From IMG/VR virus record IMGVR_UViG_3300032326_002011, positions 1 through 34,966 of that record: a stretch of DNA of 34,966 bases; one strand, written 5' to 3'. The position numbers were made by a program, and so were the translations under genes. Each line of letters begins with the position of its first letter. Within the stretch, counting starts at the first letter, position 1. Shown in pieces: positions 15 through 29,173 of this stretch. This DNA is from a virus. A model generated the notes under the pieces. It did not search any database, was not told the DNA's origin, and worked only from the letters and a program-made list of their open reading frames with translations.

Positions 15-719
15 ATGGAAGAAATGGAAAACAAACGTCGTAAAAAGTACGACAATATCGAGTGTGTTCAACCTGGTTTTGCTAACGGTGTAGCAGGAGA
101 TTTCCCGCTTACTGACGAACAGAAAAAACAAATGGTAGATGAAGCAACCGAACATTTCGGTAAGTTCCTTACCGCACTAAAATGTGATTGGCAAAATGAT
201 CCTAACTCAATGGAAACGCCTCGTCGAGTGGCTAAAGCGTATGTTTACGATCTCTGGAAGGGACGTTATGAGAAGTTTACTGAAATCACTTCTTTCCCCT
301 CAGATGGCTATGATGGGATTATTATTGAACGTAACATACCTCTTACTTCTATGTGTTCTCACCATCATCAAACCATCAATGGGGTTGTACATATCGGCTA
401 CGTTGCAGGCAAAGATGGACGAGTTATTGGATTGAGTAAGCTTAATCGTATTGTAGAACACTTTGGTCGCCGTGGTGCTATTCAAGAGCAACTTACAGCA
501 GCTATTCACCAAGCCGTAGATAAAGTATGTGAAGATAATTTGGGTGTAATTGTAACTGTGGTTGCTACTCACTCTTGCGTATCTTGCCGAGGTGTTAAAC
601 ACCAAGGAGCAGCTATGGTAACTACTAAAGCATCAGGTGTGTTTATGGATAATAGTAACCAAGCACGAAAAGAATTTTTTGATTCACTTAAAATTAATAA
701 TGGGCATGTCTCAATTTAA
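15..719 (+). CDS. folE: GTP cyclohydrolase I
   Basis: Converts GTP to 7,8-dihydroneopterin triphosphate, the entry step to folate and also to queuosine/7-deazaguanine precursors. At 234 residues it is full length for the family. Zinc ligands are visible: Cys114 and His117 in MCSHHH, and Cys188 in the HSCxxCRGV segment. The substrate-pocket region HIGYVAGKDGRVIGLSKLNR follows the first two ligands, as in the family. The ATG at 15 is preceded by GTTAT; a second in-frame ATG lies at 24. The end overlaps the next gene by 14 bases, suggesting one operon. Phages carry folE either for folate or for 7-deazaguanine DNA modification. No queC, queD or queE homologue is visible in this window, so the pathway is open. 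The enzyme call is secure. Confidence 0.96.
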   Translation: MEEMENKRRKKYDNIECVQPGFANGVAGDFPLTDEQKKQMVDEATEHFGKFLTALKCDWQNDPNSMETPRRVAKAYVYDLWKGRYEKFTEITSFPSDGYDGIIIERNIPLTSMCSHHHQTINGVVHIGYVAGKDGRVIGLSKLNRIVEHFGRRGAIQEQLTAAIHQAVDKVCEDNLGVIVTVVATHSCVSCRGVKHQGAAMVTTKASGVFMDNSNQARKEFFDSLKINNGHVSI

Positions 720-1323
720 AGAACTAATTACTATTGAGCTAATTAAAAGCATTGGAATGCTTCGCTCATTCTCAGACCGAGATGAAGCTGGACGCAATCC
801 TGAGTTTGAATGGGCTGAAACTACCGCAGAAAGAATTACAAATTTGTTTAATTCACAATATGTACCATTCGTGAGCGAGGTTGAAGAGTTCAACAGCTTA
901 ATGAACAAACCTAACAATTATGTACCAACCGTACCAGCCAAAAATGAATGGGAGTTTGTTTACAACTTCGTTCTGGAAGAACTTGAGGAGTATAAACAAG
1001 CTTGCGAACAAGAAAACATCGTGGAAATTCTGGATGCATTGTGTGACATTGCTTACGTATCCATTGGGAACGGTGCTATGCTTCATGGTCTTAAGGATAA
1101 AATTTGGCCCGCTTATATGGAAGTACAGGCGTCAAATCTTTCAAAAGCTTGCTCTACACCAGAAGAGGCACAAAAGACTGTTGAAATCCGTTCCCAAGAA
1201 CAAGGCGAGAGCTGTCACTATGAACAGGTTGCTGACAAGTATGTTGTATATCGTACTCGAGACCGTAAGGTGATGAAATCAATTAATTACTTCAAACCAG
1301 ATCTGAAGCAATTCTTTAAGTAA
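706..1323 (+). CDS. MazG-like nucleotide pyrophosphohydrolase
   Basis: An all-alpha NTP pyrophosphohydrolase, likely to hydrolyse (d)NTPs to monophosphates and trim or clean the nucleotide pool. Counting from the ATG at 706 (205 residues), the metal-binding pattern EExxE is at 91-95 (EELEE), ExxD at 107-110 (EILD), and a further Asp at 114. The C-terminal part (VVYRTRDRKVMKS followed by NYFKPDL) resembles the tail of MazG/PRA-PH-like phage proteins. Starts at 700 or 706 both fit; an open frame reaching back to 637 would overlap folE too far. The stop overlaps the polymerase start by one base (TAATG). The substrate cannot be read from sequence. Proximity to folE and polymerase supports nucleotide metabolism. 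Confidence 0.82.
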   Translation: MSQFKELITIELIKSIGMLRSFSDRDEAGRNPEFEWAETTAERITNLFNSQYVPFVSEVEEFNSLMNKPNNYVPTVPAKNEWEFVYNFVLEELEEYKQACEQENIVEILDALCDIAYVSIGNGAMLHGLKDKIWPAYMEVQASNLSKACSTPEEAQKTVEIRSQEQGESCHYEQVADKYVVYRTRDRKVMKSINYFKPDLKQFFK

Positions 1324-3044
1324 TGAGTTATAAATCTTGTTTTGTTCAACCCCTTAAGGATAACAACTATAAAGTTCACTTGTGGGATGATGGTGGTTAT
1401 CAAACAATAGTGTGGAATTATCATGCTTACGAGGAGTGTGGTGATCATGATGCAAACAGGAATATTAGAGGACTAAGACAAGAATCGCTTCGTAAAGTAA
1501 ACAAATGGGCTAAAGACAATGTCAAGTTACATTTTAACGACATGCGACCATACCAAAGGTTTCTAGTTGATATGTACGGGACAAATGACGAGCCATCTGT
1601 TACTCACCAAGAAGTATTTTTTGATATAGAGTGTGAAATGGGAGGTGCACTTACGGAAGATTATATTCGTAGTGCTCCAAAACCTATTACCTCTATTGCT
1701 TGGTGGCACCGTCAAAAAGACGAGTGGAAAATTCTTATCTTAGATAAAAAGGAAGAGCTACAACATGCTCAAGAAGACAATAGAGAGATTATTCCGGTTA
1801 AAACAGAAAAAGCCTTACTTGAAGCTTTCCTTAACAACCTCCGCGAAATTAATCCGGATATACTAGTTGGTTACAACAGTGACTACTTTGACATACCTTA
1901 CCTCTACTACCGCCTTTGCAACGTATTCGACAAAGAAGTAGCAAACATGCTTTCTCCGATCGGAATCGTAATGGATGAATCCGAATGGAACAGAGATGGT
2001 TGGCTTAAAATTGCGGGTACCGAGTCTTTGGATTACATGAAGCTACACAAAAAGTTTAGCTTTAGAGATGAGCCTTCATTTAAACTAGATGCATTAGGTA
2101 AAAAGTACGTTGGTTTAGAAAAAATCGAGTACGAGGGTAGTTTGGACCGTTTATTTAAAGAAGACAAACAAAAGTTTATTGCTTACAACTTTCGAGACGT
2201 AGAGATCTTAAAGGCCTTAGACGAGAAATTTCAATACCTACCTTTAACAAAAAATCTAGCACATAAGGGTAAAATCAACTATTCAGATGTTTATAAGAAT
2301 AGTATGATTCACGATGGTGCAATTTCGGCTTACTTGTTATCTCAAGGTGTGGTTCCACCCGCACGCGATAGAAACCCTATCACTAAAAAGAATTACGCGG
2401 GTGGTTACTTGTTTTGCCCTAACGCAGGTTTATTTAATTACATGTTTGACGAGGACTTAACGTCTCTATACCCTTCAATTATCATGTCTTTAAACATTGG
2501 TAAAGAAACGCTAGTAGGAAGGATTTTAATTCCGGATGAGAAAGTAGTAGTAGAAGGTAAAGAGATTTTTAACTGTAGATTTGGATTAAATGATCTAAAA
2601 CAAATGAATCCGGATCTTGAATTTACTGTTCAAAACGCGAGACGTAAAACTGCACAAATGAAAGTTAAAGAGATTATCGAACTAGTAGAAAAGTCTGGGT
2701 TAGCGATCTCGGCAAACGGGGTTTTATATAGAACAGATTTTGATTCGGTACTGAAAACGATTCTGGCAAAATGGTTTGAAGAACGAGTTATATATAAAAA
2801 TAAAATGAAGCAAGCTTACAAAGCTGGCAACAAAGCAGATGGTGAAAAATTTCACTTGATGCAACACACCATGAAAATCTTGTTGAACTCACTTTACGGG
2901 GCTACCGCTTTGGGTTCATTTAGGTATGGTAACGTAATTTTGAGTGAAAGTATTACTTTGTCTGGTCAACGAATCATTCAGGAATCAGCTTATTTTGCAA
3001 ACACTCATATGAATAAAGTAATGAGAGGAGAACTTACACTATAA
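1323..3044 (+). CDS. 43A: Family B DNA polymerase, N-terminal part (exonuclease, fingers, part of palm)
   Basis: First piece of a T4 gp43-like replicative polymerase. It has the whole 3'-5' exonuclease: Exo I FFDIECE (Asp101, Glu103), Exo II NSDYFD (Asn185, Asp190) and Exo III YNFRD (Tyr288, Asp292). Polymerase motif A is DLTSLYPSII (Asp378 onward) and motif B is KILLNSLYG (518-526). The protein stops at residue 573, before motif C. The missing YVDTDS catalytic motif and thumb are in a separate gene at 3506-4435, and together the pieces total about 882 residues, close to T4 gp43 (898). Two small genes lie between. Exonuclease and polymerase residues look intact, so this is probably a working two-subunit enzyme rather than a decayed gene. 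Confidence 0.95.
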   Translation: MSYKSCFVQPLKDNNYKVHLWDDGGYQTIVWNYHAYEECGDHDANRNIRGLRQESLRKVNKWAKDNVKLHFNDMRPYQRFLVDMYGTNDEPSVTHQEVFFDIECEMGGALTEDYIRSAPKPITSIAWWHRQKDEWKILILDKKEELQHAQEDNREIIPVKTEKALLEAFLNNLREINPDILVGYNSDYFDIPYLYYRLCNVFDKEVANMLSPIGIVMDESEWNRDGWLKIAGTESLDYMKLHKKFSFRDEPSFKLDALGKKYVGLEKIEYEGSLDRLFKEDKQKFIAYNFRDVEILKALDEKFQYLPLTKNLAHKGKINYSDVYKNSMIHDGAISAYLLSQGVVPPARDRNPITKKNYAGGYLFCPNAGLFNYMFDEDLTSLYPSIIMSLNIGKETLVGRILIPDEKVVVEGKEIFNCRFGLNDLKQMNPDLEFTVQNARRKTAQMKVKEIIELVEKSGLAISANGVLYRTDFDSVLKTILAKWFEERVIYKNKMKQAYKAGNKADGEKFHLMQHTMKILLNSLYGATALGSFRYGNVILSESITLSGQRIIQESAYFANTHMNKVMRGELTL

Positions 3045-3307
3045 TGGAAAACAAAATTTCAAAACAATCAATTAGAGCAGGGGTATCAATTTTTAGTTCA
3101 GGTGAAAAACTTGATAAAGATACTATCATCTTTAAATCAGAAAACTGGTCAGATAAGGAAGTATTATTCTTTAAAAAGATGCTTAAGCAAGGGGGACGTT
3201 TTAGTATTAAAGGAGAAAAATTTTATATTACTGTTCCAGAACAGGTTTACAACCAAAAAGGAGAAGTTGAGGGTGTGATGCACAATGAAGCCGAAGAAAA
3301 CTCTTGA
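3044..3307 (+). CDS. Small unknown protein between the polymerase halves
   Basis: An 87-residue protein I do not recognise. Its start overlaps the stop of the N-terminal polymerase piece (TAATG), and its end overlaps the Smr gene by 23 bases, so all four genes are probably translated from one message. It is charged and rich in Lys and Glu, with a central KEVLFFKKMLKQGG stretch followed by alternating hydrophobic residues (RFSIKGEKFYITVP) that suggest beta strands. No membrane segment, cysteine cluster or nuclease motif is seen. Its position inside the split polymerase is the main point of interest: it could be passenger DNA or a factor that helps the halves associate, but nothing in the sequence decides this. 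Confidence 0.75.
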   Translation: MENKISKQSIRAGVSIFSSGEKLDKDTIIFKSENWSDKEVLFFKKMLKQGGRFSIKGEKFYITVPEQVYNQKGEVEGVMHNEAEENS

Positions 3308-3509
3308 TTTGCACGGGGTTAAACACGCTGATGTTGAAGATAAGTTGATTGACTTTTTCTTTTGGCAAGGTTTTGATCGTAAAGGAGTAAATATTATAAC
3401 GGGTAACTCTCAAAAAATGCAAGAAATAGTTATGAATTTCCTTGACGAATGGGACTTTAAGTATTATATTTCGTCTCACAATTTAGGAGAAATAGTAGTA
3501 GTAGAATGA
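3285..3509 (+). CDS. Stand-alone Smr-domain protein
   Basis: A 74-residue single Smr domain. The LDLHG signature is at residues 7-11, and the region equivalent to TGxG reads IITGNSQKM, so the second glycine is replaced. The C-terminal strand GEIVVVE closes the fold. Smr domains occur at the C terminus of MutS2 and as free proteins, and several have nicking or RNA endonuclease activity. Phage versions with TGxS are, as far as I recall, common in marine phages, with unproven function. The stop overlaps the start of the C-terminal polymerase piece (ATGA), giving tight coupling. It may be a structure-specific nuclease or nucleic-acid binder. Because it sits between the polymerase halves, it may also have been carried in with the event that split the gene. 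Confidence 0.8.
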   Translation: MKPKKTLDLHGVKHADVEDKLIDFFFWQGFDRKGVNIITGNSQKMQEIVMNFLDEWDFKYYISSHNLGEIVVVE

Positions 3510-4435
3510 TTAATTTAGAAAGCACACCTTGGTTTATTTGCAAAGAAGGCGACATTAATTATTGCGCTTATGTTGATACAGACTCTAATTATTATAATGC
3601 TGAACCTTTGCTTAGGCATCTCTACCCTAATTTTGATGAAATGGATGAAGGGGAAAGAGATAACAAACTCGAAGAAATCGCTCTCAAATATCAAGACTTA
3701 ATTACCGACTATTATTCGGAAATGTCTACGAACGTATTTAACGTTCCTATTCACCGTTTTGAAATGAAAACAGAATGTATTATTCGTTCGGCCTACTTTA
3801 GAGCGACTCGCCGTTATGCACAATGGATTACTAAGAAAGAAGGTGTAGTTAAAAACGAGCTAGATATCAAAGGTTTGGAGTTTATGAAAGCTAACTTCCC
3901 TCCTATTTTTGGGAAGTTTTTTAATAAGATTCTAGAGATGGCTCTTAAGGGTACTAAACAAAGTGAAATCGATAAATTGCTTTTAGAGTTTAGAGAGCAC
4001 ATTATGTCAAAAGATCTTGATATTACAATTTTAGGTAACCCTACTTCGGTAAAAACCCTAAACGATTATGTTGAGCGTGCTCCTAAACCAGGAGAAATGT
4101 TTTCACTTATCAAACCTAAAGCCCCAGCCCCAGTTAAAGCAGCTATCAAATACAATGATTTGTTATCATTTTGGGGTTTAGATAAACAACACTCTAGAAT
4201 CACTCAGGGTGATAAAGTAAAATGGATTTATTTAAAAGATAACCCATACAAAGTAGAAGCACTTGCATTCCTAGATTTTGATATGCCAGAAAAGATTCGT
4301 ACATTATTAGACGATTATGCTGATAAACACAAATCATTTGAATCTATTTTAGAATCAAAATTAGAAGGATTTTATCATGACTTGGGTTGGTCATTAAATT
4401 TAAACCCATATAGAAATATGTTTTTTAGTTTTTAA
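3506..4435 (+). CDS. 43B: Family B DNA polymerase, C-terminal part (palm motif C and thumb)
   Basis: Second piece of the polymerase, 309 residues. It begins just upstream of motif C, YVDTDS, with the catalytic aspartates at 24 and 26. The KTECIIRSAYFRATRRYAQW region is the conserved palm/thumb segment (KxxY-like), and a thumb of about 200 residues follows. The extreme C terminus, NPYRNMFFSF, has the hydrophobic and aromatic character of the clamp-binding tail of T4 gp43, which would dock on the clamp encoded at 6799. The ATG at 3506 overlaps the Smr stop. The protein is meaningful only as the partner of the 1323-3044 product. Whether the break occurred in a recent ancestor or is shared by a whole phage clade cannot be told from one window. 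Confidence 0.94.
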   Translation: MINLESTPWFICKEGDINYCAYVDTDSNYYNAEPLLRHLYPNFDEMDEGERDNKLEEIALKYQDLITDYYSEMSTNVFNVPIHRFEMKTECIIRSAYFRATRRYAQWITKKEGVVKNELDIKGLEFMKANFPPIFGKFFNKILEMALKGTKQSEIDKLLLEFREHIMSKDLDITILGNPTSVKTLNDYVERAPKPGEMFSLIKPKAPAPVKAAIKYNDLLSFWGLDKQHSRITQGDKVKWIYLKDNPYKVEALAFLDFDMPEKIRTLLDDYADKHKSFESILESKLEGFYHDLGWSLNLNPYRNMFFSF

Positions 4436-4437
4436 AT

Positions 4438-6108
4438 ATGGCAAAAGTATACGGAATAGGATTCCCATTTCACAACCACTCTTCAGTATACATTGAGGAT
4501 GGTAAAATTAAATACGCAGTCGAAGACGATAAAATGATGCGTACTAAAACTCCTTTTATTTGGGGTTACGCATCTGGAACCTCTTTAAGGGCAATTGAAG
4601 ATGCTACAAACGTTTTACTTGAAGAGGCCGATTATATTGGAGTAGGTGATACTAACTTAGTTTACTCTTATTATAGTGGATTTAATGTTACTGGTTATAA
4701 CGAGGTTTATAAAAAAGATATAGTTAATCAATTAGAAAAAATTCGTAAATCAAAAGCTAAAGTAAGATACTACAAGCACCATGATTGCCATGCTGCCTCA
4801 ACTTATTATCTTTCAGGATTTGATAAAGCCTTAGTTGTTACTCTTGATGGTGGTAACGCAGAACATGAGCTAGGTACTATTCAGCTAGCTGAAGGTATGA
4901 AAATGAATAGAGTTCATGTTTTAAGTATGCACCATAATGCTAACTCTATAGCTACACTTTGGTATTACTTGTGTGCTCCTTTTGGGTTTTTAGGTAATAA
5001 AGATGAAGGTAAAATTATGGGAATGGCCGGGCATGGTAAGTATAATGAATACTTAATGAAAGGTTTCCGTTCTGTTTTATCTTATAATAAAGGAGATCTT
5101 ACGTTTGGTCCTATTGCTCACGACTATATCTACCAATGGTTTTATTCTCAACTAGCTAAAGAAGGTTGGTTTAATACTCCTGAAGGTAAAGCTGATGTAG
5201 CTTATGCTCTCCAAAAACACACTGAAGAATTAATAGTACAATATTTAGCTGACGTAGCTGAAAGATATCCTGACTATAAAAATATTTGTTTTGCAGGTGG
5301 TTTATTTGCTAATGTAAAAATGAACCAGGTAATAAACGAAATGGGTTGTTTTGATAATATCTTTGTCACCCCAGGTATGGGTGATGAAAGTATTGCTTTA
5401 GGAGCTGCTATTTTAGCTTCTATTGAATCAGGTGATTGGAAACCTTACAAACTAGAAAATGCATTTTTAGGTTTTTCTTATAATCAAGATCAAATTGAAG
5501 CTGAAGCTGCTAAACATTCTAATTTAAAAAAGTTAGATTTTGATTACAGAAAAGTAGCAGAACTAATTCACGAAGGTAAAGTTTGTGGATTGTATCAAGG
5601 TCGTTTTGAATTTGGCCCTCGTGCTTTAGGTTCTCGTTCCATTATGGTTCGAGCAACAGATCCAGGAACCCATGAAATGCTAAATGAAAGGCTAAAACGA
5701 AATGAAATTATGCCTTTTGCTCCATTTGTGTTAGGAGAACAAGCACATAACGTCTTTAATATCGAAGGATCAGAGCACACCGCTGAATTTATGACTATTT
5801 GTTATACAGCTAAAGATGAATGGATTGAAAAAATTCCAGCAGTAATTCACAGAGTAGATAATACAGGTCGTCCACAACTAATCTACCAACATGCTAACCC
5901 AGTATTCTGGAATATTATAAATGAATACTATAAACTTTCAGGAATACCTGTTTTATTAAATACTTCATTTAACGCTCATGGAGAACCAATTAATGTGTAC
6001 CCTGATCAAGTATTTAAACATTTAGTAGATGGTGTTGTAGATTATTTAGTTACTGAATACGGAATATATTATAAAGAAGAAAAAAATGAAGACGAAAGTA
6101 ACAGTTGA
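4438..6108 (+). CDS. Carbamoyltransferase of the NodU/TobZ family
   Basis: Transfers a carbamoyl group from carbamoyl phosphate, through a carbamoyl-adenylate, to a hydroxyl of a small molecule or base. At 556 residues it is full length with both domains. The N-terminal Kae1-like ATPase fold shows HHDCHAAS (His114, His118) and TLDGGN (Asp137), followed by the region KDEGKIMGMAGHG. The C-terminal carbamoyl-phosphate domain has the hallmark GRFEFGPRALGSRSI at about 388-402. In other bacteria the substrates are nodulation factors or antibiotics. A phage-type homologue has been reported to carbamoylate 5-hydroxymethylcytosine. The gene sits beside DNA polymerase rather than in the sugar cassette, which favours a nucleotide substrate, but a glycan substrate is possible. 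The start lies 2 bases after the polymerase stop. Confidence 0.92.
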   Translation: MAKVYGIGFPFHNHSSVYIEDGKIKYAVEDDKMMRTKTPFIWGYASGTSLRAIEDATNVLLEEADYIGVGDTNLVYSYYSGFNVTGYNEVYKKDIVNQLEKIRKSKAKVRYYKHHDCHAASTYYLSGFDKALVVTLDGGNAEHELGTIQLAEGMKMNRVHVLSMHHNANSIATLWYYLCAPFGFLGNKDEGKIMGMAGHGKYNEYLMKGFRSVLSYNKGDLTFGPIAHDYIYQWFYSQLAKEGWFNTPEGKADVAYALQKHTEELIVQYLADVAERYPDYKNICFAGGLFANVKMNQVINEMGCFDNIFVTPGMGDESIALGAAILASIESGDWKPYKLENAFLGFSYNQDQIEAEAAKHSNLKKLDFDYRKVAELIHEGKVCGLYQGRFEFGPRALGSRSIMVRATDPGTHEMLNERLKRNEIMPFAPFVLGEQAHNVFNIEGSEHTAEFMTICYTAKDEWIEKIPAVIHRVDNTGRPQLIYQHANPVFWNIINEYYKLSGIPVLLNTSFNAHGEPINVYPDQVFKHLVDGVVDYLVTEYGIYYKEEKNEDESNS

Positions 6109-6778
6109 TTTTAACGGATCAAGACAAGGTATTAAAGTTAGTGTTAAATGTAATCCTGAAAAGGAGATTTACATTGTAATGTTAACTAAAAGAGGTAATT
6201 TATGGAATTATTATGGTGCTGCTACTCTTTCAAATGATCAATGGCAGGTAACAGGACCTAACTGGCACCGAGATTGGAAATTTGTTTGTTATGAGTTTAT
6301 AGATGGTGAAGCTGTAGTTATAGATACTATTGAAAAGAATAGATATGGTACTACTACTAATTTTTATTTATTAGGAGGTGAATCTATTGAAACTCATTTT
6401 ATTTGGTGTAATACTATTAAAGAATACGCTAAAAAGTTTCAATGCAAAGTACAAATCGAAACAGAGTATGCTAGTGTTTTAGCTAGTAGTTTTCCTGAAA
6501 TGGTGTTTTACCAAGAAATGCCTAGTATAGCTTTAAGATCTAACTATATAGGGTATAATGTTTGTAGAGATTTAAGTCAACCTAATAGATTTGATTGGCA
6601 AACCAATAGATCAGATATCCAATATTATAATTGGTGGCATCCCAAACCTCCTCATAACTTAACAGACAAAGAAATAGTTAATGAAATTATTTTCGGTCCT
6701 GATTTGTTAGATCCATTTTTTGATATTATTCGTTCTTCTGAAGAAACAATTAATAGTTTATACTTGATTCTTGACTAA
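6086..6778 (+). CDS. Unknown protein downstream of carbamoyltransferase
   Basis: A 230-residue protein of no family I recognise. Its start overlaps the carbamoyltransferase by 23 bases. It is rich in Trp, Tyr and Asn, with an N-terminal part predicted by eye to be beta-rich (KVTVDFNGSRQGIKVSVKC, then alternating aromatic strands). The motif-like segment NWWHPKPPHNLTDKEIV lies near residues 192-208. No transmembrane segment or signal peptide is evident. Tight overlap suggests co-translation with the carbamoyltransferase and possibly a shared pathway, for example substrate delivery, but this is inference only. It is the last gene before the promoter of the clamp gene. Confidence 0.7.
   Translation: MKTKVTVDFNGSRQGIKVSVKCNPEKEIYIVMLTKRGNLWNYYGAATLSNDQWQVTGPNWHRDWKFVCYEFIDGEAVVIDTIEKNRYGTTTNFYLLGGESIETHFIWCNTIKEYAKKFQCKVQIETEYASVLASSFPEMVFYQEMPSIALRSNYIGYNVCRDLSQPNRFDWQTNRSDIQYYNWWHPKPPHNLTDKEIVNEIIFGPDLLDPFFDIIRSSEETINSLYLILD

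Positions 6779-7890: not shown

Positions 7891-7894
<4 letters not shown>
7604..7894 (+). CDS. Small unknown protein upstream of GroES
   Basis: A 96-residue protein, first in the transcription unit that includes groES and groEL. It has a Lys/Arg-rich start, then PYYIQLDDYCYAVQKG and GYYTSLGSALEAIARDEA, a layout I associate with small phage and plasmid proteins (DUF5405-like), though I cannot confirm it. The C-terminal half is predicted helical. The start is GTTATG after a strong promoter match, and the end overlaps groES by 4 bases (ATGA). No catalytic motif is visible. It could be an early host-takeover protein or a minor accessory of the chaperonin operon. Confidence 0.75.
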
Positions 7895-9894
<2,000 letters not shown>

Positions 9895-9895
<1 letters not shown>

Positions 9896-10155
9896 TGGAC
9901 ACTCAACAAGTAGAAAAAAATATTCAAATCGCTGAGCGAGTTCCACCTGGTGACAGGTGGAAACTCCTCAACGGTGAGAAAATTTATGATTCACTAACTG
10001 AGGTTTTAAATGCTTGGTATCAACAAGCAACTACAAAACCCCAAGCATTTAGGCTTGAACCCTTAAAGGGAAAGTTGCATATTATCACTACTGAAGAGGT
10101 AGAAATACTAAAACCTGAACCTAAGAAATACGACCTGTATGGTGACTTCGAGTAA
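9895..10155 (+). CDS. Small unknown protein between groEL and clamp loader
   Basis: An 86-residue protein of unknown function. Its ATG overlaps the groEL stop (TAATG), and its end overlaps the clamp loader gene by 17 bases. Recognisable features are a conserved-looking VPPGDRWKLLNG segment, a short helix (EVLNAWYQQATTKPQAFRLE), and a C-terminal strand with EPKKYDLYGDFE. It has no cysteines or membrane segment. It may belong with either neighbour, and I cannot choose between a replication role and a chaperone role. Confidence 0.72.
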
Positions 10156-11056
10156 AGAACATACTCTATTAGTTGAAAAATATCGTAGTAAAATACTAGA
10201 TGAGTATGTAGGTAACGAGAATATTAAGGCAACTATATCGAAATATTTATCACAGAACGATATACAAAATCTAATATTCTATGGACCAGCTGGAACTGGC
10301 AAAACTACTCTTGCTAAGCTCATTGTCAATAACCTTGATTGTGACTACCTTTATATTAATGCCTCAGACGAAAGAGGAATTGAAACAATTAGAGATAAAG
10401 TTCAAGGATTTGCTTCAACAGCTTCGTTCAAGTCTCTTAAAGTAGTTATTTTAGACGAGGCTGATTTCTTAACCATTCAGGCCCAAGCATCACTTCGTAA
10501 CGTAATTGAAACCTTTTCACGTACTACACGTTTTATTCTAACGTGTAATTATGTGGAACGTATTATTGATCCTCTTCAATCACGTTGTCAGGTACTTAAA
10601 ATTGTTCCACCTTCAATGAAAGAAGTAGCTGCTCACGTAGCAGATATTTTAGATAAAGAAGGAGTTGAATGGAGTAAAGAAACATTAGGCCCTATTGTTA
10701 AACAATATTACCCAGATATTCGTAAAATTTTAGGTACTGCTCAATTATCTACCATTGATAATAAAATAGTACTTGATAAGTCAATACTTGTATCGAATAA
10801 CTATATTGAGCAAGTTATAAACGAGCTTAAAACCGGTAAAAACTGGAAAACAATCCGCCAGATAATTGCTGATTCTAATATTAACGATTACGATGAGTTA
10901 TTTAAAGCACTTTATGAAAACGCTTCAGTATATGCTGGAGGGCAGGAAGGTTTAGTTACAATTATTATTGAAGAATATCAATATCACTCTAACTTTAGGA
11001 TTGATAAAGAAATCAATATTATGGCTTGTGTAGCTAAAATTATTCAAATGTTGTGA
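10139..11056 (+). CDS. 44: Clamp loader large subunit (gp44-like AAA+ ATPase)
   Basis: Opens the sliding clamp and loads it onto primer-template DNA, as a gp44(4)-gp62(1) complex in T4. At 305 residues it is close to T4 gp44 (319). Walker A is GPAGTGKTT at 49-57, Walker B is VVILDEAD with Glu107, sensor 1 is LTCNY (Asn137), and the SRC arginine-finger motif is at 148-150. The collar region follows. The ATG at 10139 overlaps the preceding gene, and the TGA shares bases with a GTG start of the next small gene. Its partner gp62 is at 11433-11870, with two small genes between, unlike the direct 44-62 coupling in T4. Confidence 0.95.
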   Translation: MVTSSKEHTLLVEKYRSKILDEYVGNENIKATISKYLSQNDIQNLIFYGPAGTGKTTLAKLIVNNLDCDYLYINASDERGIETIRDKVQGFASTASFKSLKVVILDEADFLTIQAQASLRNVIETFSRTTRFILTCNYVERIIDPLQSRCQVLKIVPPSMKEVAAHVADILDKEGVEWSKETLGPIVKQYYPDIRKILGTAQLSTIDNKIVLDKSILVSNNYIEQVINELKTGKNWKTIRQIIADSNINDYDELFKALYENASVYAGGQEGLVTIIIEEYQYHSNFRIDKEINIMACVAKIIQML

Positions 11057-11247
11057 AACATTTCTTTAAATACACTGTAGTTTGGATTAGCCAAAACCTT
11101 TCTATACCTTTTTGGATGGTAGGGCATGTACACCTTAGTGTAAATATTTATCAAGACTTACACGAAATAATCGCTAGTGTAGGTATGAATTTAATTGTAG
11201 CGATTGGTTTTATAATAGATTATCATGAATCAAAATCAAGATCTTAA
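11053..11247 (+). CDS. Small hydrophobic (membrane) protein, GTG start
   Basis: A 64-residue protein read from GTG at 11053, which overlaps the stop of the clamp loader gene by four bases (GTGA). Two hydrophobic stretches, about residues 14-32 and 40-56 (MNLIVAIGFII), suggest two membrane-spanning helices. The tail is short and polar (DYHESKSRS). I do not recognise it. Position and overlap support translation, but the unusual start codon and lack of homology evidence keep confidence moderate. Confidence 0.55.
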   Translation: MKHFFKYTVVWISQNLSIPFWMVGHVHLSVNIYQDLHEIIASVGMNLIVAIGFIIDYHESKSRS

Positions 11248-11467
11248 ACTCAACATCGACCTTAAAAACACAGAAAAAGTAGAAACCCCAGACGGAAACT
11301 ACGTAGTTGCTGAAGGTCTTATTTTGCGTAAAGCATCACGCTTTGCTGTAGGTACTGCACAAGATGCACTTATTCCTATCCCTGTGTTTTATGATGTTAA
11401 AACAGGACGCATTCTAAAAGAAACTTTACCAGGTGACATCAAAGACGACTACGAAGACGCTATTTGA
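11225..11467 (+). CDS. Small unknown protein before gp62
   Basis: An 80-residue soluble protein with no family I recognise. It has an acidic Asp/Lys/Asn-rich start, then LRKASRFAVGTAQDALIPIP and FYDVKTGRILKETLPGDI, giving a compact beta-type domain with an acidic tail (DDYEDAI). Its ATG at 11225 lies inside the end of the small membrane protein gene, and its end overlaps the gp62 start by 35 bases. Codon use is like the replication genes rather than the AT-rich sugar cassette. Confidence 0.7.
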   Translation: MNQNQDLKLNIDLKNTEKVETPDGNYVVAEGLILRKASRFAVGTAQDALIPIPVFYDVKTGRILKETLPGDIKDDYEDAI

Positions 11468-20110: not shown

Positions 20111-21544
20111 ATGAAAAACGGTTACATTCCGAAGGAGCAAAGAAAGAAAATTCTATTGCTAACAGATGATATTAGATTACCCTCAGGTGTAGGTAATGTA
20201 GGTAAAGAAATAGTAATCCATACAGCTCACCGCTATAATTGGGTAAATCTTGGAGCCGCAATAGGTCATCCAGATGCCGGAAAACGTTTTGATGTAAGTG
20301 GAGATACTAACACATCAGCAGGTATTGAAGATTCTAGTGTAATGATTTATCCTAATAATGGTTATGGAGATGCTAATCTTCTAAGAACTATTATTAATAT
20401 AGAACAACCAGATGCTATTATGTTGATCACTGATCCACGTTATTTTGTATGGTTATTTTCTATTGAAAATGAAGTTCGTAAAAAGCTCCCTATTATTTAT
20501 TTAAATATTTGGGATGATCTTCCTGCTCCATATTACAATCAAGCATTTTACGAATCATGTGATGCTTTGTTAGGTATTTCTAAACAAACAGTCAATATTA
20601 ATAAACTTGTTTTAGGTGATAAAGCTAAAAATAAAATTATTAAGTACGTACCTCATGGTTTAAATGATGAAATCTTTTATCCTATTCAAGATAAAGAACA
20701 AGATAAAGAATTTCAAGAATTTAAAAAGCAATTATTTAAAGGTAAAGAATATGAATTTGTAGCCTTCTTTAATTCTAGAAATATTCGTCGTAAACAAGTC
20801 CCAGATACAATTCTAGCCTTTAGTCAATTTGTACAACAACTACCTAAAGAAAAAGCAAATAAATGTGCTTTAGTTTTACATACTGAATTAGTTAGTGAAC
20901 ATGGAACTGATTTAGTAGCAGTAATAGAAACATTAGTTCCTAAAGATGTAAATATAATTTTTACTCCTGGAAGACTAGACCATAAAGCAATGAATTATCT
21001 TTATAATCTAGCAGATGTTCAAATGTTGCTTACTTCAAATGAAGGTTGGGGTCTATCACTTACAGAAGCACTTCTAACAGGTACTCCAATTATTGCTAAC
21101 GTAACAGGTGGAATGCAAGACCAAATGCGTTTTGAATTTGAAGATGGAACTTGGATTGATTTCGATGCTGATTTTCCTTCAAACCATAGAGGTACTTATA
21201 AAAAGCATGGTAAATGGGCTTTTCCAGTTTATCCATCTAATATTTCAATTGTAGGTTCTCCTCCAACACCTTATATTTTTGATGATCGTTGTCGTTGGGA
21301 AGATGCAGCTGAACGTTTAATGGAAGTTTATAATTTATCTTCCGAAGAAAGAAAAGAAAGAGGTTTAGCTGGTCGTGAATGGGCTACTAGCAAAGAAGCT
21401 GGATTCACTTCAAAACATCAAGCTGATAGATTTATTGAAGCCACTGATCAATTATTTAGTACTTGGACCCCCAGAGAAAAATATGAGCTTGTTAATGCTA
21501 CCGAATTTAAAAAACCAGTCTTAAACCATAAATTAATATATTAA
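20111..21544 (+). CDS. Glycosyltransferase family 4
   Basis: A 477-residue GT-B glycosyltransferase. The N-terminal domain starts KILLLTDDIRLPSGVGNVG, with the glycine-rich acceptor loop. The donor domain holds NEGWGLSLTEALLTGTP near 310-326, the E-x7-E retaining GT4 signature, followed by ANVTGGM. The C terminus has the usual return helix (DRFIEATDQLFSTW). It is followed by a second GT4 with a one-base overlap, so the two probably add consecutive sugars. The cytoplasmic donor is probably an NDP-hexose. The acceptor could be a phage protein, phage DNA or a host lipid-linked glycan. Confidence 0.9.
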   Translation: MKNGYIPKEQRKKILLLTDDIRLPSGVGNVGKEIVIHTAHRYNWVNLGAAIGHPDAGKRFDVSGDTNTSAGIEDSSVMIYPNNGYGDANLLRTIINIEQPDAIMLITDPRYFVWLFSIENEVRKKLPIIYLNIWDDLPAPYYNQAFYESCDALLGISKQTVNINKLVLGDKAKNKIIKYVPHGLNDEIFYPIQDKEQDKEFQEFKKQLFKGKEYEFVAFFNSRNIRRKQVPDTILAFSQFVQQLPKEKANKCALVLHTELVSEHGTDLVAVIETLVPKDVNIIFTPGRLDHKAMNYLYNLADVQMLLTSNEGWGLSLTEALLTGTPIIANVTGGMQDQMRFEFEDGTWIDFDADFPSNHRGTYKKHGKWAFPVYPSNISIVGSPPTPYIFDDRCRWEDAAERLMEVYNLSSEERKERGLAGREWATSKEAGFTSKHQADRFIEATDQLFSTWTPREKYELVNATEFKKPVLNHKLIY

Positions 21545-22821
21545 TGAAACCAGTTTTTGTAATAAGTTGCCCTATCGACACTTATAGTGGGTATGGAGCA
21601 CGTTCTAGAGATATCGTCAAAGCAATCATTAAAACTGATAGGTACGATGTAAAAATTCTCCCACAACGTTGGGGTAACACATCTTGGGGCTTTATTGAAG
21701 ATCATAAAGATAAGTGGGGATTTTTAGAATCATATATTTTACCTCAACCTAAATTAACTCAACAACCTGAAATTTGGGCTCAAATTACTATTCCAAACGA
21801 ATTCACCCCAGTGGGAAAATATAATATTGGGATTACTGCGGGTATGGAAACTACAGCAGTTAAAGGTGAATGGATTGAAGGGTGTAATAGAATGAATCTT
21901 GTAATTACCTCTTCGGATTTTGCTAAAAAAACTTTTGAGTCAATGAGTTATGAAATTAAAAATCAACAAGGTCAACCTCAAGGCTATTTAAAATTAACAA
22001 CCCCAATTGAAGTTATTTTTGAAGGAGCAGATACAGACATTTATAAAGTAATTGAAGCTAATCAACTTAAAAGTATTGATTTAAGTGCAATTAAAGAAGA
22101 TTTTTGTTATTTGTTTGTAGGTCATTGGATGCAAGGTGATTTTGGTGAAGATAGAAAGAATGTGGGATTATTAGTTAAAGCATTTTTTGAAACATTTAAA
22201 AATAAAGCTAAAAAACCAGCTTTAATTTTAAAAACTAGTGGTGGAGTATCTTCGTACATGGACAAAGCCGAACTACTAAAAAAAATTGCTGCTATTAAGG
22301 ATACAGTAGTTGCTAATTCTTTACCTAATATTTACCTTATTCATGGTGAATTTACAGATGAAGAAATGAATGAAATTTACAACCATCCTAAAGTAAAAGC
22401 TATGGTTAGTTTAACTAAAGGTGAAGGTTTTGGTCGTCCATTACTTGAATTTAGTTTAGTTAAAAAACCAATTATGACTACAAATTGGTCAGCTCATACT
22501 GAATTTTTATCTAAAGAATTTACTACATTAATGAATGGTGAATTAAAAAATCTTCATCCAAGTGTTTTAAATGATTGGTTTGTAAAAGAAGCTCAATGGT
22601 TTAATGTTAGTCCCATGGAAATAAATCATTACTTTAAAGATATCTTTGAGAATTATAAGAAATACCAAAATAATGCTAACCGACAAGCTTATAAAAGCAA
22701 AAATGAATTTAGTTGGGAAAAAATGTTTGAAAAAGTAGATCAAGTACTTACAGAACACATCCCAGAATTCCCTAAAGAAATAAAATTAGAACTTCCTAAA
22801 TTACAAAAAATAAATGGATAA
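21544..22821 (+). CDS. Glycosyltransferase family 4 (second copy)
   Basis: A 425-residue GT-B glycosyltransferase related to, but clearly different from, its upstream neighbour. It starts VFVISCPIDTYSGYGARSRD, with a glycine-rich acceptor loop. The donor domain has KGEGFGRPLLEFSLVKKP near 292-309, the GT4 E-x7-E motif. An internal region (DFGEDRKNVGLLVKAFFETF) matches the common RKN(V/I) phosphate-binding segment of the family. It overlaps the zinc ribbon gene by eight bases. It probably works in series with the previous enzyme. Confidence 0.9.
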   Translation: MKPVFVISCPIDTYSGYGARSRDIVKAIIKTDRYDVKILPQRWGNTSWGFIEDHKDKWGFLESYILPQPKLTQQPEIWAQITIPNEFTPVGKYNIGITAGMETTAVKGEWIEGCNRMNLVITSSDFAKKTFESMSYEIKNQQGQPQGYLKLTTPIEVIFEGADTDIYKVIEANQLKSIDLSAIKEDFCYLFVGHWMQGDFGEDRKNVGLLVKAFFETFKNKAKKPALILKTSGGVSSYMDKAELLKKIAAIKDTVVANSLPNIYLIHGEFTDEEMNEIYNHPKVKAMVSLTKGEGFGRPLLEFSLVKKPIMTTNWSAHTEFLSKEFTTLMNGELKNLHPSVLNDWFVKEAQWFNVSPMEINHYFKDIFENYKKYQNNANRQAYKSKNEFSWEKMFEKVDQVLTEHIPEFPKEIKLELPKLQKING

Positions 22822-23260
22822 TTTAACTACCTGTGACCGTTGCGGTTCAGATGCTTGCTACGTTCAAGAAGTAAATCAAGATATAAAACTACACTTTTGT
22901 TATGGTTGTGGTTTCCAAGCTAATACCGCTATGAAACGTGACTCAGAATTTTTACAACAACAAATAGAAGTACTTCCTGAGTTGTATAAAGAATTAATGG
23001 GTGAAGATGAAAATGGAACTATTTGGATGCCTTCAGTAGTTAACATTCCTGATAAGGGAATGGTATTTGCTGATGGTCCCAATGGTAAACAATGGCAGTG
23101 GGCTGCTGTAAAAGCTACTTTAATGTCTGAAGAAGAAAAGGCTAAATTTAAAGAAAAAGGTAAAGAGTACGACTACAAAATGGATATGACTACTCTAACT
23201 CATTTCCAAGAACGTGATTTTATAGAGGCTTTAACTTATATTGGGGTATTACCTGAATAA
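22814..23260 (+). CDS. Zinc ribbon protein of unknown function
   Basis: A 148-residue protein. An N-terminal zinc ribbon is formed by CDRC (Cys7, Cys10) and CYGC (Cys29, Cys32). The rest contains DGPNGKQWQWAAVKATLM and KMDMTTLTHFQERDFIEAL, with no motif I recognise. It looks like a phage housekeeping protein rather than a sugar enzyme, yet lies in the sugar cassette, overlapping the GT4 gene by eight bases. It could bind nucleic acid or a structural partner. Confidence 0.75.
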   Translation: MDNLTTCDRCGSDACYVQEVNQDIKLHFCYGCGFQANTAMKRDSEFLQQQIEVLPELYKELMGEDENGTIWMPSVVNIPDKGMVFADGPNGKQWQWAAVKATLMSEEEKAKFKEKGKEYDYKMDMTTLTHFQERDFIEALTYIGVLPE

Positions 23261-23261
23261 G

Positions 23262-23888
23262 ATGAAAATTAGTTATGCAGTCACAGTTTGTAATGAACTT
23301 ATAGAAATACAACGTTTACTTCCTTTCTTAATTAAAAATAAAAGAAAAAAAGATGAAATTGTTATATTCTATGATTCTAATAATGGTTCTAAAGGAGTTG
23401 AGGATTATCTAAGAGCTCAATCTCAAGGTACATTTGCTCCTTTTAGATTCATTCACTATCATTTTGATGGGCATTTTGCTAATATGAAGAATGCTCTTAC
23501 AGAAGCCTGTCTAGGAGATTATATCTTTCAGATTGACGCTGATGAAATACCTAATTGGTATTTAATTCAATACCTACCTATCTTACTAGAGAATAATGAT
23601 GTAGAAGTACTTAGAGTACCCAGAATAAACACTGTAAAAGGATTAACCCAAGAACATACCCAGAAGTGGGGTTGGATTGTAGATAGCAAAGGTAGAGTTA
23701 ACTGGCCTGATTTACAATGGAGGATTTATAAAAATACCCCAGAAATTAGATGGAAAAATAAAGTACATGAAGTATTAGATGGTTATAAAACTCATGCTAT
23801 TTTACCTTTAGAGGAAGAATTTGCTTTAGAACACCATAAAGATATTGAACGTCAAGAAAGACAAAACGCTTATTACGACACATTATGA
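23262..23888 (+). CDS. Glycosyltransferase family 2-like
   Basis: A 208-residue GT-A glycosyltransferase. It begins ISYAVTVCNELIEIQRLLPFL, the family 2 first strand and helix. The QIDADEIPNWYL segment near 90 supplies the DxD metal and nucleotide-binding site. EIRWKNKVHEVLDGY resembles the short WxxxVHE motif of LPS-type GT2 enzymes. The ATG at 23262 is preferred over an in-frame TTG at 23241, which would overlap the zinc ribbon gene. It overlaps the DegT-like gene by ATGA. Confidence 0.88.
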   Translation: MKISYAVTVCNELIEIQRLLPFLIKNKRKKDEIVIFYDSNNGSKGVEDYLRAQSQGTFAPFRFIHYHFDGHFANMKNALTEACLGDYIFQIDADEIPNWYLIQYLPILLENNDVEVLRVPRINTVKGLTQEHTQKWGWIVDSKGRVNWPDLQWRIYKNTPEIRWKNKVHEVLDGYKTHAILPLEEEFALEHHKDIERQERQNAYYDTL

Positions 23889-24526
23889 AAAATGTATATG
23901 ACATCACAAATGAGTTTGAAGAAAAACTAGCTCAATACACAGGAGCTAAATATGCTATTACTTTAGATAATATGAGTAACGGTTTATTTTTAGCTTTATA
24001 TTATGAGCATTATGTAAATAAAAGTATTAAAACTGATTCTATTACAATCCCTAATAGAACTTACCCATCAGTCCCTTGTGAAATTATTCATGCTGGGTTA
24101 AAAGTAAAATGGGAAATACAACCTGAAAATACTATTACAGGGGCATACCAATTAAAAGGATCTAATGTTTGGGACTCAGCTTTGTCATTTACTGCTGATA
24201 TGTACAAACCTAAAACTCATATGTGTGTTTCTTTTACAGGTCCTTATAAACATTTTAAACTAAGTAAAGGTGGTGCTATTTTAACTGATAGTCATGAAGC
24301 TTATCTTTGGTTTAAAAGAGCTAGATATTCAGGCCGCCGTGAATGTTCTTACCATGATGATAATTTAGATATGTTAGGTTGGAATTTTTATATGATGCCT
24401 GAATTAGCAGCACGTGGTTTATTACTTATGGGGCAATTCTATAATTTAGATGGCTCTAAGAAAACTAACCCTGATCTAACTCTACCTTACCCTGATTTAT
24501 CCAAATTCCCAGTTTACCAACAATGA
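23885..24526 (+). CDS. Short DegT/DnrJ/EryC1-like aminotransferase homologue
   Basis: A 213-residue protein with the N-terminal and central part of the PLP-dependent sugar aminotransferase fold: FEEKLAQYTGAKYAITLDN, TIPNRTYPSVPCEIIHAG, a WDSALSF segment (Asp97, equivalent to the PLP-ring Asp) and SFTGPYKHFKLSKGGAIL. Lys122, seven residues before GG, fits the Schiff-base lysine. Typical members have 360-400 residues; the C-terminal domain is missing here. It may be a compact active form, or a binding protein derived from an aminotransferase. It sits between a GT2 and a NeuD-like acyltransferase, which together suggest an N-acylated amino sugar. Confidence 0.78.
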   Translation: MKNVYDITNEFEEKLAQYTGAKYAITLDNMSNGLFLALYYEHYVNKSIKTDSITIPNRTYPSVPCEIIHAGLKVKWEIQPENTITGAYQLKGSNVWDSALSFTADMYKPKTHMCVSFTGPYKHFKLSKGGAILTDSHEAYLWFKRARYSGRRECSYHDDNLDMLGWNFYMMPELAARGLLLMGQFYNLDGSKKTNPDLTLPYPDLSKFPVYQQ

Positions 24527-25188
24527 AAAATATTGTCTTAATTGGAGGAGGAAACCAAGCTCACTATACAATTGATATAATCGAAAGAGAAGAAAAATAT
24601 AATATTATAGGTATTATAGATTCTGTCCATGAAGTAGGTAGTGATAGATTTGGTTATAAAATTTTAGGTAGACAAGAAAATATTTCTCAACTTATAGAAG
24701 AATATAATATTGAAGGTGGAGTAATTTCTATTGGAGATAATTGGAGTAGGTATTATGTTTATAATCAAATTAAAGAAATATCCCCTAACTTTCAATTTGT
24801 AAATGCTATACACCCCTCAGTTATTATAGGTAATAATGTAAAATTAGGAGTAGGAATAGTAGCTATGGCAGGGTGTATTTTTAATCCAAAATCTCAAATT
24901 GGTGATTTTACTTTCTTTGCTACTGGAGCCCAAGTAGAACATGATTGCCAGATAGGAGACTTTGCTAGCATTTCAGCAGGATCTGTTACAGGAGGATATG
25001 TAAAATTAGGAAAATTTTCAGCTATTACTTTAGGAGTAACTATAGTAGATAGATTAGAAATTGGAGAAAATACAGTTGTAGGGTCTGGAAGTTTAGTAAC
25101 TAAATCACTCCCAGACAATGTTTTAGCTTATGGTTCTCCTGCTAAGGTTATAAGAAATAGAACTAATGGTGAAAAATTTTTAAAATGA
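24523..25188 (+). CDS. NeuD/PglD-like sugar O/N-acyltransferase
   Basis: A 221-residue acyltransferase. The N-terminal Rossmann-like domain begins IVLIGGGNQAHYTIDII. From about residue 95 a left-handed beta helix is built from hexapeptide repeats (VIIGNNVKLGVGIVAMAG, QVEHDCQIGDFASISAG), with the catalytic His in EHDCQIGD. The end has the usual SPAKVIRNR. It acetylates an amino sugar using acetyl-CoA. Its placement right after the DegT-like gene, with an ATGA overlap, fits two consecutive steps of amino-sugar synthesis. Confidence 0.92.
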   Translation: MKNIVLIGGGNQAHYTIDIIEREEKYNIIGIIDSVHEVGSDRFGYKILGRQENISQLIEEYNIEGGVISIGDNWSRYYVYNQIKEISPNFQFVNAIHPSVIIGNNVKLGVGIVAMAGCIFNPKSQIGDFTFFATGAQVEHDCQIGDFASISAGSVTGGYVKLGKFSAITLGVTIVDRLEIGENTVVGSGSLVTKSLPDNVLAYGSPAKVIRNRTNGEKFLK

Positions 25189-25970
25189 CACAAGATAATT
25201 TTATTGAATTAAATAAACAAGGGTATACTATTATAAGAAATTTAGTAGATGAAAATTGGCTAAATACTTTAAGAGAAGCTATAGATAAAGCTTTTGTTGA
25301 ACATCGTACTACTCAACTTAATAATAATAACGATATTAAAACTGATGGAGTTGCTCTTCATGCTTTATTAAGTAATCCTATTTTTATTTCCTTTTTAGAG
25401 AATCTACAAAACAAAGGATTTTTTAATTTTCTTTCTGAAAGTTTTTTTAAAAGTAATTGCATTATAAATTCATTTAGTGCTTTAGATAATCTTCCAAATC
25501 AACCTAACTTCTCAGCTATAGTGCATAGAGATTTAAGATTTTATTCTGGTGATTTTCCAATCATGCTTAATTGTCTTTTAATGGTAGATGATTTTACTAT
25601 TGAAAATGGAGGAACTTATTTATTACCTTATTCTCATTTAGAAGAACGTAAACCTAGTGATGAAGAATTTTTCCAAAAAGCTATCCAAGCTACAGGTCAA
25701 AAGGGAGATATGATAATTTTTAATGCTAATGTTTGGCATTCTTCAGCTCCTAATACTACTCAAGATCATAGAAGAGCAATTCCTATTACTGTTAGTAGGT
25801 CATTTATGAAACAGTTATTAGATTATCCTAGAGCAATAGGATATGATAAAATGGACAATTTTTCTATAGAATTACAACAATTACTAGGTTACCATTCTAG
25901 AGTTCCAGCTTCATTAAATGAATGGTATCAACCTGAGGATAAACGTTTTTATAAAAAGAATCAAGATTAA
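25185..25970 (+). CDS. Phytanoyl-CoA dioxygenase (PhyH)-like Fe(II)/2-oxoglutarate oxygenase
   Basis: A 261-residue non-haem iron oxygenase. The start FIELNKQGYTIIRNLVDENW is typical of PhyH proteins. Iron ligands are His113 and Asp115 in VHRDLRF and His185 in VWHSSAPN, with the 2-oxoglutarate-binding Arg in HRRAIPIT near 195. The loop ENGGTYLLPYSH between them is also characteristic. Its substrate is probably a sugar, lipid or base carrier in the cassette. It overlaps both neighbours by 1-4 bases. Confidence 0.9.
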   Translation: MTQDNFIELNKQGYTIIRNLVDENWLNTLREAIDKAFVEHRTTQLNNNNDIKTDGVALHALLSNPIFISFLENLQNKGFFNFLSESFFKSNCIINSFSALDNLPNQPNFSAIVHRDLRFYSGDFPIMLNCLLMVDDFTIENGGTYLLPYSHLEERKPSDEEFFQKAIQATGQKGDMIIFNANVWHSSAPNTTQDHRRAIPITVSRSFMKQLLDYPRAIGYDKMDNFSIELQQLLGYHSRVPASLNEWYQPEDKRFYKKNQD

Positions 25971-26818
25971 TGAGTCCTAATGTAGTAATAGTAGCTCCTT
26001 CCTATAACCCTCAAATTGGGGGTTCAATAGTTTTACATAAACTATGTGATATTTTAAATCAAATTGGAATCTCCTCATCTTTAACTACTACAGTAAAACT
26101 TAACGGTCCCTCTAACTACTTTTCTCTTAATCCTCAATTTAATACTGATATAGCAAAAGAATTTAATCCTCTAACAGACATAATAATTTATCCCGAAATA
26201 GAAAGAGGAAATCCTTATGAAGCTAAAAATGTAGTAAGATACATCCTTAGTAAATCTCACACAGTAGACCTACCAGAAGGATCTCATAGTTCTACATGGA
26301 GTGATAGTGATTTTTGGTTGTATTTTCATGAACTTTTTTATGATGGGTTAGCTGAAAAAAATATACTTCATATTATACAATCTAAAGTAGATTTATATTA
26401 TGATATGGGAATAGAAAGAACTATAGATTCATGCTATACTTATAGAAAAAGTTCTAAAATTTTAAATCAAGATTCTAATTCAATAGAAATTAAATATAAT
26501 ACTACGGACGCTGAATTGTTACAAATATTTAATAAATGTAAAAGATTTTACAGCTACGATACCGAAACTTATTTAAATGTATTAGCAGCACTATGTGGAT
26601 GTGAAAGCATAATAATCCCCGAAGAAGGAAAAACTCGAGACATGATTATCGATAAACAACCTAGTTTTAAATACGGTATAGCATACGGGTTAAACGATAT
26701 TCAACACGCCCAAAACACTAAACATTTAGTTAGGTCCCATCTTGAAAATTTAGAACAAATCCAAATACAAGACACTATAAGTATTTTTAATAAAATATTT
26801 AACCATTTTAATTTATGA
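25970..26818 (+). CDS. Glycosyltransferase-like protein (GT-B type)
   Basis: A 282-residue protein starting VVIVAPSYNPQIGGSIVLHKL, a GT-B N-terminal strand plus glycine loop. IIIYPEIERGNPYEAKNVVRYIL matches segments in glycosyltransferases of LPS clusters (WavQ-like, from memory). Near the C terminus, KCKRFYSYDTETYLNVLAALCGCESIIIP is the expected donor-domain segment, with an acidic residue in place of the GT4 E-x7-E. It starts in TAATG overlap and ends in ATGA overlap. The specificity is unknown. Confidence 0.72.
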   Translation: MSPNVVIVAPSYNPQIGGSIVLHKLCDILNQIGISSSLTTTVKLNGPSNYFSLNPQFNTDIAKEFNPLTDIIIYPEIERGNPYEAKNVVRYILSKSHTVDLPEGSHSSTWSDSDFWLYFHELFYDGLAEKNILHIIQSKVDLYYDMGIERTIDSCYTYRKSSKILNQDSNSIEIKYNTTDAELLQIFNKCKRFYSYDTETYLNVLAALCGCESIIIPEEGKTRDMIIDKQPSFKYGIAYGLNDIQHAQNTKHLVRSHLENLEQIQIQDTISIFNKIFNHFNL

Positions 26819-27495
26819 CCACACACATATATTATAGACACTATAATACTTCAGATGATAATAATAAAAATCGACCTGATTGGTTTACTTATAAAAAATG
26901 TTACTATAATTTATTATCATCACTTCAATCCGAAACTAATAATTATAAAATAAATGTAATTTATGATGGGGTTGAATTAAATTGGATTCAAAGTACAAAA
27001 CATGACGTTTTATATAATATTAATGCCGGAGCTGATTTTAAATCATTTCAACAAACTTGCACAATAGTAAAAAACGATCCTTTAGTAAAAGATGGTGATT
27101 TAATCTATTTTCTAGAAAATGATTATATGCACTTAGATGGTTGGTTAAATAAAATTATAGAATTGTTTTCAACATATCAAGGTATAGAGTATGTATCTTT
27201 ATACGACCATATGGATAAATATTTTCTACCAATGTATGATAATTTATTATCTAAAATATTTGTTACTCCTACCCATCATTGGAAATCAACCCCATCAACC
27301 TGCGGTTCATTTATATTAACTAAAGAATTATTTGACCAGGATTATGACATACTATCTACTATGGAAGGAGATCATAATAAATGGCTATGGTTAAATCATC
27401 ATAGAAACAGATCAATTATATCCCCAATCCCGGGATTATCTACTCACTGTATGGAAGGTTTAATGTCTCCTACTATTGATTGGTCTCAAGTATGA
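26815..27495 (+). CDS. Putative GT-A glycosyltransferase
   Basis: A 226-residue protein with a GT-A-like fold pattern. It begins THIYYRHYNTSD, and residues about 94-108 read DGDLIYFLENDYMHLDGW, where END would be the DxD equivalent. WKSTPSTCGSFILTKELF resembles the acceptor/nucleotide loop found after DxD in such enzymes, and the tail contains LSTHCMEGLMSP. The family is not certain. ATGA overlaps on both sides tie it to the neighbouring glycosyltransferases. Confidence 0.65.
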   Translation: MTTHIYYRHYNTSDDNNKNRPDWFTYKKCYYNLLSSLQSETNNYKINVIYDGVELNWIQSTKHDVLYNINAGADFKSFQQTCTIVKNDPLVKDGDLIYFLENDYMHLDGWLNKIIELFSTYQGIEYVSLYDHMDKYFLPMYDNLLSKIFVTPTHHWKSTPSTCGSFILTKELFDQDYDILSTMEGDHNKWLWLNHHRNRSIISPIPGLSTHCMEGLMSPTIDWSQV

Positions 27496-28286: not shown

Positions 28287-28584
28287 ACTTGAGTTTCCAC
28301 TTGATCTAGAAATCAAGTATGAGGACCCACAAGAACTATTAGAGTTGGCTTCTAAAGAAGAATTTGTTACATTTATGTTCGGAAATGCCATAGCAGCAAT
28401 CAAGCAAGCTATCCGTAAAAATAAAAGTGAATGTGTTATATTCAGCATACAAAACTATAATGTAACAGTAGCTATTAAAAAAGAACATTATAAAACATTC
28501 TTAAATAAAGCTATTAAACACTATGAATCTCTAGAAGAATATGTTAAATGTAGTGAATTAGTAACCTTAAAATCCAGATTATGA
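28270..28584 (+). CDS. Small unknown protein
   Basis: A 104-residue, mainly helical, charged protein without a recognised domain. It has KEEFVTFMFGNAIAAIKQAIRKN followed by a strand pair (CVIFSIQNYNVTVAIKKEHY) and a C-terminal helix. The start at 28270 lies inside the end of the GT2 gene, and the end overlaps the next small gene by four bases. It belongs by style to the run of small phage genes that begins here. Confidence 0.7.
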   Translation: MEQKFKLEFPLDLEIKYEDPQELLELASKEEFVTFMFGNAIAAIKQAIRKNKSECVIFSIQNYNVTVAIKKEHYKTFLNKAIKHYESLEEYVKCSELVTLKSRL

Positions 28585-29155: not shown

Positions 29156-29173
29156 CAAATAAAGGTTATATGT

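Follow-up and report, generated by a model that had tools for sequence, protein, structure and literature searches.

The Aeromonas phages 44RR2.8t and 25 make a T4-type family B DNA polymerase from two adjacent genes, gp43A and gp43B, and the two products of phage 25 co-purify and are active (PMC2988022). The halves of the phage 25 gene are separated by a seg homing endonuclease and its 43B has an annotated group I intron, and the gap in 44RR is an untranslated spacer rather than a homing endonuclease (PMC2988022). PolB of the jumbo phage MIJ3 also lies in two ORFs with a gene between them, in this case an HNH endonuclease, and a putative split intein would re-ligate the protein (PMC6892783). 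Two polypeptides also make up a cellular enzyme, the archaeal PolB of Methanothermobacter thermautotrophicus, according to a passage in PMC7776575 that cites Kelman 1999. The split phage polymerases known previously were a few Aeromonas phages and the intein cases.

Layout and conservation of the polymerase locus

The window, which is the whole 34 966 nucleotide stretch of viral DNA analysed here, carries a split gp43-type family B DNA polymerase in two complete genes. The N piece (1323..3044, 573 aa) holds the exonuclease domain, motif A, the fingers and motif B, while the C piece (3506..4435, 309 aa) holds motif C, the rest of the palm and the thumb; this division, which an earlier note on this DNA had described, was confirmed from the ORFs and motifs. 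Two optional occupants lie in the gap, which is fully coding: orf2 (3044..3307, 87 aa), from a conserved family of unknown function, and a gene for an Smr-like protein (3285..3509, 74 aa). All four ORFs are on the + strand and overlap successively by 1, 23 and 4 nt, the start of orf2 overlapping the N-piece stop (TAATG) and the stop of the Smr-like gene overlapping the C-piece start (ATGA). Exo I–III and motifs A, B and C follow in order with their catalytic residues intact. The N piece contains the exonuclease residues D101, E103, N185, D190, Y288 and D292, with the Exo I motif FFDIECEM at 1617..1640, motif A (DEDLTSLYPSI) at 2448..2480 from residue 376 and motif B (MKILLNSLYG) at 2871..2900 from residue 517. 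Motif C (YVDTDS, 3569..3586) occupies residues 22–27 of the C piece and includes the catalytic D24 and D26. The polymerase is broken after window residue 573.

The N piece matched the Pfam families DNA_pol_B_exo1 and DNA_pol_B. Aligned with PHROG 262 (phage DNA polymerase, 856 positions), the N piece covered 61–567 and the C piece 565–841, and as the two pieces tile the family no essential segment is missing and no residues have been lost at the break. The summed length is 882 aa, compared with 874, 848 and 855 aa in unsplit relatives, in agreement with the match to an unsplit gp43 proposed earlier.

Scans of IMG/VR, for which the two pieces and diverged relatives served as queries, yielded 325 loci with both polymerase parts, 296 of them near full length and 167 remaining after dereplication at 99%. 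Broken at the same place were 137 distinct loci, a number from which two distant cases (L001 and L238) were left out; the recurrence of the break in so many loci shows that it is not a sequencing error. The polymerase of L238 is distant and its N and C ORFs are ∼1 kb apart, a separation that may reflect an intein, an intron or a split. The split loci share N tails of the form ..IIQESA..ANxHMNKV.. and C heads of the form M(K/I)xLExTPWFICxxxDxNYCAYVDTDS. The intactness of the catalytic residues claimed from the window extended across this set, since 17 of the 19 catalytic and motif positions checked were invariant in 137/137 loci and the other two deviated in one locus each. Values of dN/dS between 0.03 and 0.14 against close relatives indicate that both halves are under strong purifying selection.

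Unsplit polymerases were found in the L055/L062/L163–L172 group, in the L192–L200 group (∼42% identity to L062) and in more distant phages. The closest annotated isolate, Microcystis phage Mel-JY01, has an unsplit polymerase with 33% identity. Related records of 130–183 kb carry T4 portal and gp23 capsid genes and the lineage is therefore assigned to the T4-like myoviruses; testing the clade on the SU10 capsid family yielded nothing. The sole match in the genome collection was a contig (CAJQJC010000006.1) whose N piece was 59% identical. This contig was assigned to the bin of a Pelagibacter metagenome-assembled genome, which hints at the host. The lineage is large, uncultured and mostly marine, the term marine resting on the Pelagibacter-binned contig and a general impression.

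Occupants of the gap

The earlier note had read the polymerase as split by two extra genes. This did not hold: the same break has nothing between the halves in 16 of the 137 split loci, where the two ORFs overlap by 4 nt (ATGA), and other genes, often metabolic ones, in 80, so that orf2 and the Smr-like gene did not cause the split. The gap holds orf2 only in 24 loci and orf2 with Smr only in 13. Across the split loci 270 gap ORFs were in the sense orientation and six were opposite, and the median coding fraction among gapped loci was 1.0. A gene starts within −30 to +3 nt of the N-piece stop in 104/121 gapped loci, and a gene stops at the C-piece start in 101/121. The arrangement can be seen in a pair of loci, L137 (empty) and L138 (occupied), with flanks 96% and 99% identical, in which the occupied locus carries a 368 nt gene placed precisely where the stop and start codons of the empty locus overlap (ATGA to ATGA). 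Within this essential, split gene the gap serves as a site for cargo, with orf2 and Smr as two of its occupants.

Representative cargo was assigned by Pfam to mannose-6-phosphate isomerase C-terminal, cytidylyltransferase-like, PALP, DAHP synthetase I, transaldolase and dTDP-sugar epimerase families, and further cargo resembles glycosyltransferases and methyltransferases, as judged by eye only. The second commonest gap family after orf2, G2, encodes about 120–150 aa and was present in 37/137 split loci (e.g. L293). Many metabolic and sugar genes also lie elsewhere in the window (4438–6108, 7891–9895 and 20111–34805), where they encode a carbamoyltransferase, GroES/GroEL-like proteins, two glycosyltransferases, a PhyH-type dioxygenase, a sulfotransferase and a glycosyltransferase family 25 protein. 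Endonuclease-like genes were seen in three gaps, as GIY-YIG in L335, as T5orf172 in L073 and, by eye, as an HNH-like gene just upstream of the C piece in L020 (polC start 9999), which had no Pfam match. The first residues of the L020 C piece are unlike those of close relatives, and may have undergone co-conversion. Homing endonucleases were rejected as the general gap occupant, these three loci being the only ones with endonuclease-like genes.

The gene orf2 was found in the gap of 103/137 split loci. The family consensus is MxLKKQSIRxG..KxExIxxSExWSExQExFFRKMLKQGGxFKIxG, and the predicted fold is a beta-hairpin, two helices and a second beta-hairpin (pLDDT 80.5); no match was found in Pfam, PDB sequences, PDB folds or BFVD. 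Smr-like genes were present in 24/137 loci, and elsewhere unrelated genes take their place. The identification of an Smr gene in the window stood only in part, as the window protein matched Pfam Smr at E = 0.11, below the cut-off, and 8/11 members of its family matched, the best at E = 2.8e-5. A DLHG motif is present in all members and not just in the window copy, whereas the second motif is TGNS in most members rather than TGxG and lacks the second glycine. The Smr assignment is thus a weak one, made at the level of the family. A Pfam match to the botulinum neurotoxin helical domain (18.8 bits, cut-off 52.2) was treated as chance.

A probable polymerase of two chains

A working two-chain polymerase, as the earlier note suggested, is supported by the conserved residues and the low dN/dS, and the locus very probably encodes, for a T4-type phage, a replicative family B DNA polymerase that truly has two subunits, its assembly and activity being inferred. 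The break lies in the loop between the long helix after motif B and the beta-hairpin bearing motif C, and the junction has gained about 16–19 residues, including the conserved C-piece head MxxLExTPWFICxxxDxN. The halves are made from one tightly packed operon, presumably with translational coupling, and would fold together non-covalently into one enzyme like RB69 gp43, motif C then being on a different chain from motifs A and B. In an AlphaFold model of the naturally unsplit L062 polymerase (an unsplit relative rather than the window pieces), which resembles RB69 gp43 with a TM of ∼0.8, the position of the break falls in a loop of low confidence (residues 571–580, pLDDT 54) flanked by a helix (532–561) and the motif C hairpin (585–596). 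A break in this loop spares both secondary structure elements, which makes non-covalent assembly of the halves plausible. One ORF ends and the other starts independently, so the boundary tolerates whole genes placed between stop and start codon, and the breakpoint has become a site for cargo. The activity of phage 25 gp43A and gp43B offers a precedent, by analogy, for such an enzyme.

It is very unlikely that the enzyme is really a single chain, with its halves united after transcription or translation by ribosomal frameshifting, by an intron or by a split intein. Such joining has parallels in MIJ3, where a split intein would unite the PolB halves (PMC6892783), and in the intron of phage 25 43B, but no intein blocks were seen at either end of the break when the junctions of ∼100 loci were read by eye, the C head offers only ∼20 residues before motif C and has no terminal His-Asn, and no Rfam intron was detected in the window. 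In abutting relatives the 4 nt overlap is out of frame, and a frameshift cannot bridge the two intervening genes of the window. A split intein and an intron were both rejected on the junction sequences, the Rfam search and the abutting relatives. Less probable still is that the split gene is a decaying relic and that another polymerase replicates the phage; the window is an incomplete 35 kb fragment and an intact polymerase could lie elsewhere in the genome, but the strong purifying selection on both halves and the conservation of catalytic residues over 137 loci do not fit decay. The frequency of orf2 in the gaps, and the tight packing of orf2 and Smr with the halves, would fit one or both serving the split polymerase specifically, as subunits or as assembly factors. 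This is unlikely, though less so than the readings above, as the Smr-like gene is so often absent or exchanged and as orf2 was not found in the records of two split phages with abutting halves, L041 (95 kb) and L147 (113 kb), records that may be incomplete. Whole-record searches also located orf2 outside the polymerase locus, in two phages with unsplit polymerases (L165 and L195) and in one with an abutting split (L049). These searches, in which orf2 and the split were uncoupled, point to an existence of orf2 independent of the split and weaken its candidacy as an obligate partner. In the record of L165 the orf2 homologue (L355 2176–2397) has an exonuclease-like gene as its neighbour within the replication region, with the clamp loader and GroEL genes close by, and the polymerase there is unsplit.

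Age of the break and comparison with other split polymerases

The gp43 gene was most likely broken once, in an ancestor of this large uncultured T4-like lineage. Trees were made with the junction columns removed, and the concatenated tree took the form ((L073 split, (unsplit L055/L062/L171, split L253/L254/L257/L258)), main split clade). Monophyly of all split loci was rejected by the concatenated data (AU p = 0.003 with LG and 0.0007 with a mixture model) and by the N piece alone (p = 0.0002), p-values that are somewhat optimistic because the grouping was named after the first tree had been seen. The tree of the downstream clamp-like gene also joined the unsplit clade to L073 and the L253 group (100/99). 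An unsplit clade nested in the split lineage, as in the concatenated and N-piece trees, implies one old split and probably one re-fusion; the C heads, N tails and orf2 position are common to both split groups, which favours a single split and hence a single re-fusion. Compared with outgroup enzymes, the unsplit clade has a linker with ∼16 additional residues. The sequence of this linker was not consistently closer to the split ends than shuffles were, and a scar recognizable by sequence was rejected; only the extra length is therefore used. A GTP cyclohydrolase gene upstream of the polymerase (window 15–719) gave a tree strongly at odds with that of the polymerase, an observation suggestive of frequent exchange beside the replisome genes, and folE was rejected as a phylogenetic marker owing to its scrambled tree.

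A single origin rests on the homologous junction ends and on the trees, and the C piece alone orders the loci differently, placing the unsplit clade outside all split loci (93/89) without rejecting the nested grouping (p = 0.37). This ordering lends some weight to a tentative alternative, that the gene was split repeatedly and independently at the same place, with the unsplit form ancestral or the N part recombined, and that no re-fusion took place. Also in its favour are the unsplit linker, which has no significant similarity to the split head and tail, and the apparently separate break of the huge phage LR756508 (484 kb) in this region; set against it are the rejection of all-split monophyly, the clamp-like gene and the likeness of C heads, N tails and orf2 start in both split groups. 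Recombination between N and C may have occurred. These data, on balance, favour a break beside motif C in a T4-like ancestor that was kept, became a landing site for cargo and was re-fused in one clade with a linker scar.

The break between motifs B and C appears to be a long-kept trait of a whole lineage, so that a split of this kind is not a rarity and is not soon mended. The varied metabolic genes that lie within a split essential gene suggest a route by which cargo could become tied to genes that the phage cannot lose. The apparent re-fusion would provide a natural test of the gains and losses of a two-chain polymerase, and the family offers many such polymerases with a permissive junction.

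The searchable literature, where most subscription papers are missing, contained no earlier description of this break. In the M. thermautotrophicus enzyme it is the small subunit that carries motif C. MIJ3 has its putative split intein, whereas no intein sequence was found in the window lineage. The polymerase of LR756508 also has its break between motifs B and C, and other genes take up ∼3 kb between the two parts (L001, LR756508.1 256000–270500, polymerase genes at 3348–6417 and 9410–11288). It groups weakly with unsplit relatives (88/54) and its split is for that reason probably independent. Intein-like segments occur in motif B of its first gene and motif C of its second; both are in cis, and a split intein was rejected for this phage. 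The distinction drawn earlier from the Aeromonas 44RR/25 group was upheld for the position of the break and failed for the contents of the gap, where homing endonucleases had been set against the gene pair of the window: the gap of 44RR is a spacer, and endonuclease-like genes do occur in the gaps of a few relatives of the window, making the contrast one of frequency. The end of 44RR 43A, nearly identical to that of phage 25, corresponds to window residue ∼475, between motifs A and B and about 100 residues upstream of the break in the window lineage. With the Aeromonas break elsewhere and a spacer in 44RR, the two are not the same split with different contents; unlike the Aeromonas phages, the window lineage is broken between motifs B and C and carries varied cargo in the gap.
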